Assembly: GCA_944385415.1 (NCBI GenBank) | Contig: CALWXC010000003.1 | Location: 1 to 64,000, forward strand | Length of the DNA: 64,000 nt | Source of the DNA: an uncultured Oscillospiraceae bacterium | GTDB taxonomy: Bacteria > Bacillota > Clostridia > Oscillospirales > Oscillospiraceae | Direction of reading: 5' to 3' | Part shown: positions 7,496 to 17,654 of the stretch, in pieces | Layout of the letters: every line of letters starts with the position of its first letter | How positions within the stretch are numbered: the first letter of the stretch is position 1 | Position numbers and translations under genes: made by a program | The notes under the pieces: model-generated | Told to the model about the DNA's origin: nothing | The model's input: only the letters and a program-made list of their open reading frames with translations | Databases searched by the model: none

Positions 7496-8590
7496 TCAGA
7501 TCAGACGGTTTTCCCTGGACACCAGGTACTTCTTGACCATCAGGGCCACCTTGAAGATGATGGCGTGGTCAAACTCCCGCAGATCCAGGCCCGTCAGCTT
7601 CTTGATCTTCTCCAGGCGATACACCAGGGTGTTGCGGTGGACGAAGAGCTTGCGGGATGTCTCCGAAACGTTCAGATTGTTCTCAAAGAACTTGTTGATG
7701 GTGAACAGCGTCTCCTGGTCGAGAGAATCAATGGAGTTTTTCTTGAAGACCTCAGACAGGAAAATCTCACATAGGGTGGTGGGCAGCTGGTAGATCAATC
7801 GCCCGATACCCAGATTCTCATAGCTGAGAATGCTCTTTTCCGTGTCAAAGACCTTCCCCACCTCAATGGCCACCTGGGCCTCCTTATAGGCGTCGGCCAG
7901 TTCCCGCAGGTGGTTGGCGATGGTGCCGATGCCGATGGCCGTCTTGATAAACAGCTCTGCCTTGAGGGTATCCTCCACCGACTGGGCGATCTTAAACAGC
8001 TCCGCGCTCTCCACATTGGCCGGAACCTGCTTGACAATGGCAATATCCGTCTCATTGATGCTGAGCACAAAGTCCTGCTGCTTATCGGTGAACATATTTT
8101 GCAGCACATCCACCGCCGCCACGTCGGCCCGGCCGATCTGGCGAATCAGAAACACGGCCCGCTGCACATCGGTGGCAAAATGCAGCTCTTTGGCCCGGAT
8201 GTAAATATCGCCCGGCAAAATATTGTCGGTGATGATGTTCTTGACAAAGGTGCCCTTGTCGTGCTTTTCCTCATAATAGGTCTTGGCGCCGTTGAGCGCC
8301 ACATAGGCCATAATGCACAGGCTTCTGGCCGCCTCGTCGTCGCCGTCGGTAAAAACGGCGTAATCAAAATAAGAACTCCAGCTGGACAGCGGTTTGAACG
8401 TCTTCTTATCCACAATGACAATGGAGTCCGGCGCACTGTTGAGCTTGATGACTGCGTCCGACCATTTCTCCCCGATCATGGCAGTATCACTGCACGAAAT
8501 CACATTACCATCAGAGTCGATGACGCCGATCATACGATCAGTGGCATCCTTCATCTGGACGATGACGCTCTGAAACACCCGACTGGACAT
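7496..8590 (-). CDS. PucR/CdaR-family helix-turn-helix transcriptional regulator
   Basis: The 364-residue protein has a sensor-like N-terminal region (about 1-180), a middle part resembling the degenerate GGDEF-like domain of the family, and a C-terminal PucR-type HTH (about 305-355, RNTLVYRLEKIKKLTGL). Family members are usually activators of purine, sugar-diacid or amino-acid catabolism genes. It is therefore unexpected directly upstream (22 bp) of ftsE and in the same direction. It may be cotranscribed with the division genes. The ligand is unknown. An RBS AGGGGAGGG precedes the ATG. Confidence 0.85.
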   Translation of the reverse strand: MSSRVFQSVIVQMKDATDRMIGVIDSDGNVISCSDTAMIGEKWSDAVIKLNSAPDSIVIVDKKTFKPLSSWSSYFDYAVFTDGDDEAARSLCIMAYVALNGAKTYYEEKHDKGTFVKNIITDNILPGDIYIRAKELHFATDVQRAVFLIRQIGRADVAAVDVLQNMFTDKQQDFVLSINETDIAIVKQVPANVESAELFKIAQSVEDTLKAELFIKTAIGIGTIANHLRELADAYKEAQVAIEVGKVFDTEKSILSYENLGIGRLIYQLPTTLCEIFLSEVFKKNSIDSLDQETLFTINKFFENNLNVSETSRKLFVHRNTLVYRLEKIKKLTGLDLREFDHAIIFKVALMVKKYLVSRENRLI

Positions 8591-8751
8591 ACGATGCCCT
8601 CCCCTTCAAAATAACGCATAACAACGGAATACACAAATATTCACATAGATTCTACAATGCTTTTGTCCATATTTCAAGAGGTATTTGACATTTTATTTCA
8701 AAATGGTCGCCGATATTTGTTTCTTTTTGCCATATGCCACCGGAAACGTAC

Positions 8752-8791
8752 CGATTTTTCAGGAAAACCGCGGTCTTTTCCCGAAAAATCG
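8752..8791. repeat. Long inverted repeat in the rsuA-regulator gap
   Basis: A 16-bp inverted repeat with one mismatch (8752-8767 with 8776-8791) surrounds an 8-base GC-rich loop. There is no run of T after it on the minus strand, so it does not look like a standard terminator for rsuA. The rest of 8591-8804 holds no gene. Confidence 0.5.
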
Positions 8792-8804
8792 TTGTGCATA
8801 ATGA

Positions 8805-9503
8805 CTAAGCCTGCAGTTGTAAAATTTCTTCCTGCTCCAGAACGCGGCACGCTCCTTTGGGAAGGTCTCCCAATTCCAGCGGTCCTTCCGCCACCCGCTT
8901 GAGATAGCGGACATACCAACCGCGGGAGGCCATCATCCGGCGAACCTGATGATATTTGCCCTCATGGAGCACAATCCGGCTTTTTCCCGGCCCCAGGGGC
9001 GTCAGCTCTGCAGGCAGACAAACGTCTCCGTCCCGCAGCACAATGCCCTGTTGAAAGGCTTCTACATCGGCGGCAGTACTCTCCCCGTCGTGCTCTGCCT
9101 CATAGACCTTGGGCACCCGGTGCTTGGGTGAGATCAGACGGTGCAGCAGGGCGCCGTCATTGGTCAGCAGCAGCAATCCCTCCGTCTCTTTATCCAGCCG
9201 TCCCACCGGCGACAGCTCCATGGAGCGGTACGGCTCCGGAAGCAGTTCCATCACCGTGGGGTCTCTGGGGTCCTCTGTGGATGTCACATAGCCGGCCGGT
9301 TTATGGAGCATCAGCACCACAACGCCGGGGCGGGCAATGGGCTGCCCGTCCACCAATATGGTATCGGCGGCGGCGTCCACCTTCTGCTCCGGCGTGCGAA
9401 CTGCCTGGCCGTTGACGGTGACCCGACCGGCCCGGATGATTCCTTTTAACTCTCGACGGGAGGCCACACCGGCCTCCGACAGCACTTTGTCCAACCGCTG
9501 CAT
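8805..9503 (-). CDS. rsuA: Pseudouridine synthase, RsuA family
   Basis: Modifies a uridine in rRNA; family members of this type act on position 516 of 16S rRNA. The 232-aa protein has an S4 RNA-binding domain (about 1-48). The synthase domain has the catalytic Asp at D104 in GRLDKETEG. Length is normal. AGGAGGG precedes the ATG. It is the first gene of the minus-strand run that continues into the PucR-like regulator, separated from it by the hairpin region. Confidence 0.93.
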   Translation of the reverse strand: MQRLDKVLSEAGVASRRELKGIIRAGRVTVNGQAVRTPEQKVDAAADTILVDGQPIARPGVVVLMLHKPAGYVTSTEDPRDPTVMELLPEPYRSMELSPVGRLDKETEGLLLLTNDGALLHRLISPKHRVPKVYEAEHDGESTAADVEAFQQGIVLRDGDVCLPAELTPLGPGKSRIVLHEGKYHQVRRMMASRGWYVRYLKRVAEGPLELGDLPKGACRVLEQEEILQLQA

Positions 9504-15160: not shown

Positions 15161-15188
15161 AAAGCCCGCCAGTGTCCCGGCGGGCTTT
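15161..15188 (-). terminator. Original yebC terminator, now stranded beyond the insertion
   Basis: A perfect 10-bp stem (15161-15170 with 15179-15188) is followed on the minus strand by TTTTT. It lies 10 bp beyond the displaced copy of the yebC 3' end, the position expected for the natural terminator of an uninterrupted yebC. Confidence 0.85.
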
Positions 15189-15198
15189 GGTATTGATT

Positions 15199-15279
15199 TT
15201 ACTCGTTGTCCCAGTTATGCCAGACATTCTGGACGTCGTCATCGTCCTCCATCATGTCCAGCAGCTTCTCCATGTTCTT
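15199..15279 (-). repeat. Displaced copy of the yebC 3' end (81-bp direct repeat, copy 1)
   Basis: Encodes the last 26 codons plus stop of YebC (NMEKLLDMMEDDDD... to the stop), cut off from the gene by the insertion. It matches 16920-17000 at 79 of 81 positions. The two differences (AAT/AAC Asn and CAT/CAC His) are synonymous. It is joined in frame to AT-rich element sequence, giving an open frame of 62 codons from 15387 that is probably not a real gene. Confidence 0.95.
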
Positions 15280-15470
15280 AATAGCGAGAACATAGAGAAA
15301 CCGGTTTAAATACGAACTTTTCAAGCAGTTTATTAACCTTCTATGTGTTGCATAATTCTCTATATATGTCACAATTAAATTAAGCAACTATATCATAGCA
15401 GATTGCTGAACAAAAAACAAGTAGTACAAACCTAGCGACCTAATTTATGTATAGAAAAAAATGTAATTAT

Positions 15471-16526
15471 TTATTCCATATCATTTACATGAGCTTTTCT
15501 AAGTTGTTCTAGTTCAGTTTCTAGTTTCTCAATATATCTTTTTATTAATTCTATCTCTCTTTGTACAGTATTTTTGGTAGCTGCAATATTGTTTAGTCTG
15601 GATTCAAGTGCATCCATTACTTGCTCTCGCTCTGTTTTAATTGAAAATAAGTTCTCTACAGGAACTTCTTTATCATAATCATAGGTAAAGTAATAATATG
15701 TATATTTACTAGGATTATCAACTGGTGGAATGTCGTTTGTATCTCCTTCATAAAAACGTACTTGTCGTCCAGCAGCTGTATTCCCCATGCCACGCAAGCA
15801 CATAAACACAGGCGCAGGTTTAATTCCATAATGGCTTGCAAATGCTGCTACGCTATTCCATGTTCTAATATATTTCCCATAGACATCATATTCGTTTAAT
15901 GGTCTTGCTCTTCGTGATGATATTTTTTCTCCACGCGTACCGTGAACTGCATTTTCCTTTGCTGTAACCCATTCAAGGTTATCAACTGAATTGTGTGTTC
16001 TATTTTCATCTATATGATTTACTATCGGCTTATTCTCTGGATTAGGTATATATTGAGTTGCCACTAATATATGTACCATTCGTCTATACGGTTTTTTATT
16101 TTTATATAGGCTTACTACAAGATAACCATTTTGATTAGGATTTAAGCCAATGAGACGTTTAGTATGTATGTTACGCACATCTCCATTTTTATTTATTTCA
16201 TAATCTGGAAAGTCTAAAATAACTTCCCATTCAACAGTATCATTCGGAGAAGTTATCCATTCCAAATTAGAAACATTGTCATTTTGTTTATTGCCATCTT
16301 TATGAAGAACACTGTTTTTATGATTTGGATTCGGGATAAATGTCTGGGCCACAAGTTCGCATACCTTAATTCTTTTTCTTCCACTTTGGGTAATAATGGT
16401 ATAATACATATAACCATCGTTAAATTGTCGTTTTTGAAGTTCACGTTTTGTATTTATATTTCGCAAAGTTCCATTTTCATTAATTTCATACGCTGATAAA
16501 TCCCCATCAAGCTTCTTCCAACTCAA
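15471..16526 (-). CDS. HNH homing-type endonuclease with two NUMOD4-HNH units, NUMOD1 and coiled coil
   Basis: The 351-residue protein contains a tandem repeat. NUMOD4-like at about 3-50 is followed by an HNH at about 52-95 (LHKDGNKQND...NLEW). A second NUMOD4-like at about 100-147 is followed by an HNH at about 150-192 (VNHIDENRTHNSVDNLEW). A NUMOD1-like DNA-binding segment (about 207-260) comes next, ending in a charged coiled coil (about 295-346). Such proteins nick or cut DNA in homing elements and phages. Most single-unit relatives are about half this size. The start is TTG with GAGGTG seven bases upstream. Codon use is strongly AT-biased against all neighbours, indicating foreign origin. 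The frame is intact. Confidence 0.88.
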   Translation of the reverse strand: MSWKKLDGDLSAYEINENGTLRNINTKRELQKRQFNDGYMYYTIITQSGRKRIKVCELVAQTFIPNPNHKNSVLHKDGNKQNDNVSNLEWITSPNDTVEWEVILDFPDYEINKNGDVRNIHTKRLIGLNPNQNGYLVVSLYKNKKPYRRMVHILVATQYIPNPENKPIVNHIDENRTHNSVDNLEWVTAKENAVHGTRGEKISSRRARPLNEYDVYGKYIRTWNSVAAFASHYGIKPAPVFMCLRGMGNTAAGRQVRFYEGDTNDIPPVDNPSKYTYYYFTYDYDKEVPVENLFSIKTEREQVMDALESRLNNIAATKNTVQREIELIKRYIEKLETELEQLRKAHVNDME

Positions 16527-16588
16527 TCTTATTCACCTCTACTCAAATAAAACCTATTATCCAGATAGTATGAGTGTTTTAAAATAAT

Positions 16589-16837
16589 TTATATCTGCGG
16601 AAAGGTTAAACACTTTACAATGAAGGATATTTGTTTCTTCTTGCAGAAACGTAAAAAGAGATTGAGACCATTGCGGTATCCCCGTATTGTTTTAGGGGTA
16701 TACTTTCTGACCTCAATCTCTACAAGATACTCTTTTACCAATACTTCCAGCTTCGTATTTTTCCCTCCTTTTGTGGCGAATTGTACGTCACAATAGAAGG
16801 AATTGTGTATGTCATAACTCAAATCAGAAAAACGCAA
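16589..16837 (-). pseudogene. Tyrosine recombinase remnant, N-terminal core-binding part only
   Basis: The 82-aa open frame contains the SAM-like N-terminal signature of tyrosine recombinases (LVKEYLVEIEVRKYTPKTIR followed by GYRNGLNLFLRFCKKK). It stops before any catalytic domain. The expected R, HxxR and Y motifs are nowhere else in 15280-16919, so most of the gene has been lost. It lies next to the yebC junction, where an integrase gene is expected. The TTG start at 16837 is only the frame limit. Confidence 0.7.
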
Positions 16838-16919
16838 CTCAATTTCAAATATCAGAAATAAGTTTTAATAAATTCCAATTTTTATATAAATACACTTCAT
16901 TCAGTTAAAAAAAGTTCTA

Positions 16920-17000
16920 TTACTCGTTGTCCCAGTTGTGCCAGACGTTCTGGACGTCGTCATCGTCCTCCATCATGTCCAGCAGCTTCTCCATGTTCTT
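16920..17000 (-). repeat. Functional yebC 3' end supplied by the element (81-bp direct repeat, copy 2)
   Basis: The last 26 codons and stop of the intact yebC. It is identical to the copy at 15199-15279 except for two third-position changes. Homology stops right after the stop codon on one side. On the other side it ends where the displaced copy enters element DNA at 15280. Confidence 0.95.
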
Positions 17001-17654
17001 GATGTCCTCTTCCTTCTCAAGCTTCTGATAATTTTGGGGAACCATCTCCACCTGGGCGGACACAAAGCTGTATCCCTTGGCCGTCAGAGCATCGGCCACG
17101 GCGTTGAAGTCATCGGGATCGGTGGTGATCTCGAAGCACTCACCCTCATTGGAGAAGTCCTCAGCGCCGGCGTCCAGGGCATCCATCATGACGGTGTCCT
17201 CTTCCAGCTCCTCTTCCTCGTTGTCGATGACCAGTACGCCTTTACGGTCAAAGCTCCATGCCACGCAGCCGGAAGCGCCCAGGTTTCCGCCGTACTTGTC
17301 GAAGTAGTGACGCATATTGGCAGCGGTACGGTTGCGGCTGTCGGTCATGGTCTCCACGATGACGGCCACGCCGCTGGGGCCGTAGCCTTCGTAGGTGATG
17401 GACTCATAGTTGTCGGTATTACCGGCGCCGGAAGCCTTATCCAGCACGCGCTTGATGTTATCATTGGGCATGTTGGCGGCCTTGGCCTTGGTGATAACGG
17501 TGGCCAGACGGGAGTTATTGGCAGGATCGGCGCTGCCGCCCTCCTTCACCGCAACAATCATCTCCTTGGAGATTTTGGTGAACATGGAGGCACGCTTGGC
17601 GTCCTGCGCACCCTTGGTCTTCTGAATGTTATGCCATTTGGAATGTCCGGACAT
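16920..17654 (-). CDS. yebC: YebC/PmpR family protein
   Basis: The 244-aa protein has the family N-terminus MSGHSKWHNIQKTKGAQD and the three-domain layout of normal length. Family members were first described as transcription regulators. Related proteins, including mitochondrial TACO1, act in translation of difficult proline-rich stretches, so the role here is open. It is transcribed from its own promoter. Its final 26 codons come from the inserted element, and its old terminator is 1.7 kb downstream. The protein sequence is unchanged by this. Confidence 0.95.
   Translation of the reverse strand: MSGHSKWHNIQKTKGAQDAKRASMFTKISKEMIVAVKEGGSADPANNSRLATVITKAKAANMPNDNIKRVLDKASGAGNTDNYESITYEGYGPSGVAVIVETMTDSRNRTAANMRHYFDKYGGNLGASGCVAWSFDRKGVLVIDNEEEELEEDTVMMDALDAGAEDFSNEGECFEITTDPDDFNAVADALTAKGYSFVSAQVEMVPQNYQKLEKEEDIKNMEKLLDMMEDDDDVQNVWHNWDNE

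Follow-up and report, generated by a model that had tools for sequence, protein, structure and literature searches.

Within the window, a 64,000-nucleotide stretch of contig CALWXC010000003.1 from an uncultured Oscillospiraceae bacterium, an intact yebC gene is followed by an AT-rich insert, a displaced copy of the yebC end, a strong hairpin terminator that abuts this copy, and a tetR gene (Table 1). The insert measures about 1.7 kb and has a GC content of 33%, against about 55–60% in the neighborhood. The two copies of the gene end form a direct repeat of 84 bp, 1721 bp apart, in which 81 of 84 positions are identical, and all three differences (Ile ATC/ATT, Asn AAC/AAT and His CAC/CAT) are synonymous. 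We found no further copy of the repeat sequence elsewhere in the window's genome. The same arrangement recurs in six other genomes, which excludes chance as its origin. The original prediction, made from the letters of the window, had described an 81-bp repeat with 79 identities; its His and Asn differences were correct but its size was not, and the third difference (Ile ATT/ATC), at the inner edge of the repeat, agrees with its statement that only synonymous changes separate the copies. The length and AT-richness of the insert were also described accurately, and the yebC open reading frame confirms that the intact gene reads through the copy on the insert side.

Table 1. Positions of the features at the yebC locus, numbered from the first letter of the window.
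Feature	Position	Strand	Basis or remark
Original yebC terminator, displaced with the native end	15161–15188		Same hairpin directly after yebC in G004
Displaced copy of the yebC end (attR-like)	15199–15282	-	Repeat alignment; empty site in L001/G004
Matching arm-type-like repeat TTGTGACATAT at the element's right end	15364–15374	-	
NUMOD4/HNH_3 homing-type endonuclease gene (351 aa)	15471–16526	-	Pfam HNH_3 8e-14, NUMOD4 3e-11; phrog_59 4.6e-63
Tyrosine integrase remnant, N-terminal SAM-like domain only	16589–16837	-	Pfam PF13495 E 4e-4; DNA alignment
Terminator-type hairpin in integrase coding sequence (stem-loop 16657–16721, T-run 16653–16656)	16653–16721	-	Proposed replacement yebC terminator
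Hairpin of anti-Shine-Dalgarno (16796–16803) and Shine-Dalgarno (16763–16768)	16763–16803	-	Predicted seal on integrase translation in read-through RNA
Arm-type-like repeats TTATGACATAC (16807–16817) and TTGTGACGTAC (16783–16793)	16783–16817	-	Repeated in relatives
yebC-side repeat copy (attL-like), last 84 bp of intact yebC, adjoining the insert	16920–17003	-	
Intact yebC (244 aa)	16920–17654	-	ORF; Pfam TACO1/YebC E 2.9e-64 and 5.8e-30

A sister genome of the same genus, G004 (locus L001), contains the empty site: the insert is missing, and yebC runs straight on to the terminator and tetR also present in the window. The YebC protein of G004 is 100% identical to that of the window, and its yebC end carries the codons of the window's intact copy. 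Four other congeners also have yebC without an insert, and a fifth gave no yebC match. The empty site in G004 supports an insertion in the window. Empty sites in close relatives had been named in the original prediction as a check, and its suggestion that the displaced copy sits beside yebC's original terminator holds as well, the same hairpin following yebC in G004.

The insert begins directly after the intact yebC with the remnant of a tyrosine integrase, followed by the HNH gene and then the displaced copy. It shares 86% identity with the N-terminus of the integrase (297 aa) that is intact in Intestinimonas butyriciproducens An565 (L148); Pseudoflavonifractor phocaeensis An901 likewise has an element whose integrase is intact. 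The homologous part of the remnant starts at 16756, where ACG replaces the ATG (16754–16756), and the homology ends near 16610–16640, after about 44 residues. Because the integrase is truncated and start-less, the window element is, on sequence grounds, a crippled derivative incapable of moving by itself. The repeat TTGYGACRTAY occurs in one to three copies before the integrase gene in the window and its relatives, and again 150–175 bp before the displaced stop codon in five of seven elements, the window's included. With this motif at both ends, the ends look original and only the interior appears to have been lost or replaced. The window copy would thus be a deletion or replacement derivative that kept its ends and a start-less stub with its terminator hairpin, while an HNH gene took over the interior. 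The original prediction of an evolved targeting system at yebC is supported by a dedicated integrase family (see below), with the correction that the window copy itself is crippled.

The NUMOD4/HNH_3 gene is the sole intact gene of the insert; its product comprises two tandem NUMOD4-HNH units and a C-terminal coiled-coil-like tail. A relative in G054 (L169), 48% identical over residues 91–343, stands alone beside a flavoprotein gene. A second shrunken element with both ends, parallel to that of the window, lies in L158, 1554 bp (1.55 kb) after yebC; here, a broken integrase is joined to a broken serine recombinase.

Relatives of the window integrase evidently occupy the same place at yebC in many gut bacteria. 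An integrase alignment scanned against the genomes of 84,980 species returned 20 matches, and all 17 with 49–100% identity lie about 150 bp downstream of yebC; the remaining three (25–27% identity) lie away from it. Full-length matches to the 297-aa integrase account for seven of the 17, and matches confined to its first 52–107 residues for eight; of the other two, L155 is cut off by the end of its contig and L158, described above, is a deletion derivative. Whole-genome searches added four further yebC-adjacent integrase loci (G074, G050, G310 and G356). These loci are partly kin (L150/L158, L152/L153) and so not all independent, and the survey patterns overlap the hairpin-coding region discussed below, such that integrases or stubs without a hairpin are under-sampled. 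The L148 integrase carries the Phage_integrase domain (Pfam, E 2e-26) and a SAM-like domain, and an integrase sits in the same position in L149–L154. Besides the integrase, full elements carry a serine recombinase and cargo that varies. No relaxase or conjugation gene appeared in the Pfam scan, which covered part of the element ORFs, or could be recognized in the ORF lists, although a divergent relaxase could be missed; nor did the proteins scanned with Pfam include phage structural or packaging functions. In the cargo of L153, 5.7–7.7 kb after yebC, a DUF559 nuclease-like protein adjoins a WYL-domain regulator, and the two together could form a defence module.

How similar two loci are in the DNA of the integrase region says little about how similar their yebC genes are (Spearman 0.11). 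Between the window and L148, similarity is 85% for the integrase region but 67% for yebC; between L150 and L158, the corresponding figures are 98% and 81%. Integrase regions that are more alike than the yebC genes beside them, and uncorrelated with them, point to horizontal spread. Viral contigs gave no match to the stub alone and, searched with the alignment, a single phage relative, L123 (IMGVR_UViG_3300018878_000089, 8001–8897), whose integrase is 56% identical to the yebC family and uses another site: no yebC end lies upstream of it and its coding region contains no hairpin. More distant integrases in L121 (G050), L144 (G356) and L146 (G310) likewise lie directly downstream of yebC, which suggests that yebC is the target of a wider integrase group.

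A displaced yebC end is kept in seven elements, the window's and six relatives, at spacings of 1.55–7.97 kb. All seven have direct repeats at both ends, and the target yebC is complete in every occupied locus. The part common to the seven is the last ~42 bp, encoding DVQNVWHNW and a variable C-terminus. An inverted CCAG-AACGT-CTGG in the window's core was considered as the crossover site and dropped, since it is not kept in all relatives. Pooled over the seven elements and leaving out stop codons, the two copies differ by 11 synonymous codons and 1 nonsynonymous codon, against a neutral expectation of 74–86% nonsynonymous changes depending on transition bias (P about 1e-7 (7e-8), range 6e-9 to 3e-6). 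The shared core alone gives 9:1 (P 1e-6, range 2e-7 to 3e-5). The signal of protein-level selection, proposed in the original prediction from the window, is weak there (3/3 synonymous, P about 0.01) but strong over the seven elements. This excess speaks against a plain duplicate decaying in place. Rather, the two ends resemble a pair of functional alleles, of which one belonged to the recipient and the other arrived with the insertion.

The end that is brought along matches its own host in all seven elements, even at the variable residues (for example, YHNWEQE in L150, WHNWDND in L158 and WHNWENPTEA in L148). This holds although related elements resemble one another far more than their hosts do. 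The carried end is therefore not a fixed sequence, which would be foreign after a jump, and the replacement end of the original prediction has to be amended to this extent: it is not permanently element-borne, since even elements that are nearly identical carry ends fitting their respective hosts. The matching may come about by exchange between the two copies, by a crossover point that shifts, or by selection for ends that match.

Upon examination of the integrase coding sequence, we noticed a second function that the element may restore. In 16 of the 19 tested family loci, the stretch encoding integrase residues about 11–37 folds into a stem of 14 bp that in most cases encloses a second stem, and a T-run follows. 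The stability of this hairpin exceeds that of alternative synonymous codings of the peptide, with z-scores of -3.6 to -6.7 in these 16 loci; the hairpin of the window has -26.1 kcal/mol and z -3.6. By contrast, the hairpin is absent from L123, the relative outside yebC (z +0.6), and other tested integrases not adjacent to yebC average about -0.9, with none below -3.1. In a 17-locus alignment, 81.6% of pair cells are standard pairs, compared with 29–47% for slid partners, and seven pairs changed on both sides. There was no match in Rfam, and a standard terminator scan misses the hairpin because its inner part exceeds the 8-nt loop limit. Loci whose integrase gene lacks it (L151, L163, L165, G356, G050 and G310) have another terminator-type hairpin before the gene; this one contains the integrase Shine-Dalgarno in G356, G050, G310, L151 and L163 and is free-standing in L165. 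L152 and L153 have both a free-standing and an intragenic hairpin. Altogether, a terminator-type hairpin lies within 285 bp of the yebC stop codon in 22 of 22 yebC-linked loci, and 21 of these reach -18 kcal/mol or lower, as do 6% of shuffles. We infer that the element also supplies yebC with a terminator, a function that the original prediction did not mention.

Stubs too short for recombination usually keep the hairpin (the window, L156, L157, L159, L161, L164, L167 and G074), at a rate biased upwards by the overlap of the survey patterns with the hairpin-coding region. G074 has lost the promoter and the start, and its hairpin sets in about 30 bp behind yebC. At the end of this series stands G011 (L168; also L015), where a 33-nt hairpin with the arms of the integrase terminator lies 22 bp after yebC (C37:14188–14220) and no integrase is left beside it. 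This short form was found nowhere else among the 400 family genomes searched; it is possibly a domesticated relic.

Folding predictions point to a possible further layer of control. Where the start of the integrase is clear, its Shine-Dalgarno is in most loci predicted to pair with an upstream segment and to be mostly unpaired only in an RNA that begins just before it. In the window, its predicted unpaired probability is 0.02 in the long RNA and 0.69 in the short RNA. In L121 (G050), L144 (G356) and L146 (G310), the Shine-Dalgarno and the terminator belong to one and the same hairpin. It is plausible that the integrase has its own promoter between the two arms. If so, RNA reading through from yebC would remain untranslated and then be terminated, whereas the integrase's own RNA would be translated, so that the predicted folds would silence the element against read-through. 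In IS10-type elements, a hidden ribosome-binding site protects the transposase from read-through. The yebC elements resemble them in that the recombinase Shine-Dalgarno is predicted to be hidden solely when a transcript comes in from outside; they differ in applying this sealing to an integrase at a fixed site and in combining it with a terminator-type hairpin that would also serve the host gene.

Could simpler events have produced the locus? If the yebC end had been duplicated locally and AT-rich DNA had later entered between the copies, this would account for the 84 duplicated base pairs and the lack of a complete recombinase in the window. Yet the same anatomy with a full-length integrase occurs in other genera, a remnant of that integrase lies at the window's junction, the empty site in G004 is precise, and the 11:1 divergence excludes neutral decay of a dead copy. 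As the sole explanation, duplication is refuted by the integrase family at the same site, and we give it next to no credence. Hardly more probable is that the HNH endonuclease was the mobile agent, cutting the yebC end and homing by repair, with the altered copy blocking re-cutting. Homing endonucleases generally sit at conserved gene segments, and the NUMOD4/HNH gene is the only intact one in the insert, but the six other two-ended elements have an integrase in the same place with no HNH relative apparent in their listed ORFs, and the nearest HNH relative found, that of G054, is not in a yebC element.

The alternative that deserves more weight, while still unlikely, concerns the hairpin within the integrase codons, which might be a regulatory or recombination structure, such as an attenuator of the integrase alone or a folded DNA site, instead of a yebC terminator. 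Its T-run is short in several loci (4–6 T) and its stem is long with an internal loop, features that would fit such a role. It is less easily reconciled with the loci that lack it and have another terminator-type hairpin before the integrase, with its retention in stubs unable to recombine, or with the bare version behind yebC in G011.

We therefore favor, with a probability of roughly 85%, an integrative element of a tyrosine-recombinase family, attaching at the last ~42 bp of yebC, that returns the gene end together with a terminator and silences itself. Site-specific integration at the yebC 3' end is nearly certain, and restoration of the protein end is well supported. The integrase would recombine attP with the conserved DVQNVWHNW segment; yebC would gain a full end from the element, and its native end and terminator would be pushed to the far side. 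With the native terminator lost, the element would supply another, usually the hairpin written into synonymous positions of integrase codons ~11–37. This hairpin probably has two jobs, ending yebC transcripts and keeping read-through RNA from making integrase, and the hairpin that hides the Shine-Dalgarno would help with the latter. We lean slightly towards a more specific form of this model, in which the integrase coding sequence itself is yebC's replacement terminator and so couples gene repair, terminator repair and self-silencing; decayed elements would leave a fragment behind as the yebC terminator, down to the 33-nt hairpin of G011, and exchange between copies would keep the end host-matched.

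Restoration of a protein or tRNA end is known from elements that insert into the ends of genes, and by its sequence organization the window element belongs to this known kind, the integrative elements with a gene-restoring attP. We did not find yebC as an attachment site in the open-access literature searched; it may appear in the target-gene tables of Mageeney 2020, which reportedly list integration target genes. A close parallel is provided by the icd 3'-end elements (prophages such as e14 and phi21), discussed with the HE-PICI/TIGER work, in which a tyrosine integrase likewise uses an internal site near the gene's 3' end, attP carries replacement sequence, and attL and attR share an extended identity block (PMC10111431). 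The yebC elements differ in target gene and hosts, are small, lack recognized phage genes, and contain, within the reading frame of the integrase, a hairpin of terminator type. SGI1 at the trmE 3' end (PMC6531882, PMC2297512) and the IMEs at rpsI (PMC5090054) are, according to the abstracts, also non-phage elements inserted site-specifically in a housekeeping gene, at its conserved 3' end. The trmE core comprises 18 bp, whereas that of yebC spans ~42 bp up to the stop codon, and the yebC elements differ further in that no relaxase or conjugation gene is recognized in them and their second recombinase is of the serine type. GInts (PMC5385486) and dusA islands (PMC4482086) are, according to their abstracts, islands defined by a dedicated integrase, the latter also with a fixed target gene; dusA islands enter the 5' end, yebC elements the 3' end, and GInts are defined by four recombination genes, unlike the yebC elements. 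Neither abstract mentions a replacement terminator.

The feature that would be new is a replacement terminator coded inside the integrase, together with Shine-Dalgarno sealing. The yebC elements appear to return a terminator as well as a protein end, by way of synonymous integrase positions, a dual-coding constraint that can be measured. Their host-matched ends raise the question of how the attP sequence is renewed, and the gradation from an intact integrase down to a hairpin alone suggests a route by which a mobile element can turn into a regulatory part of the host.
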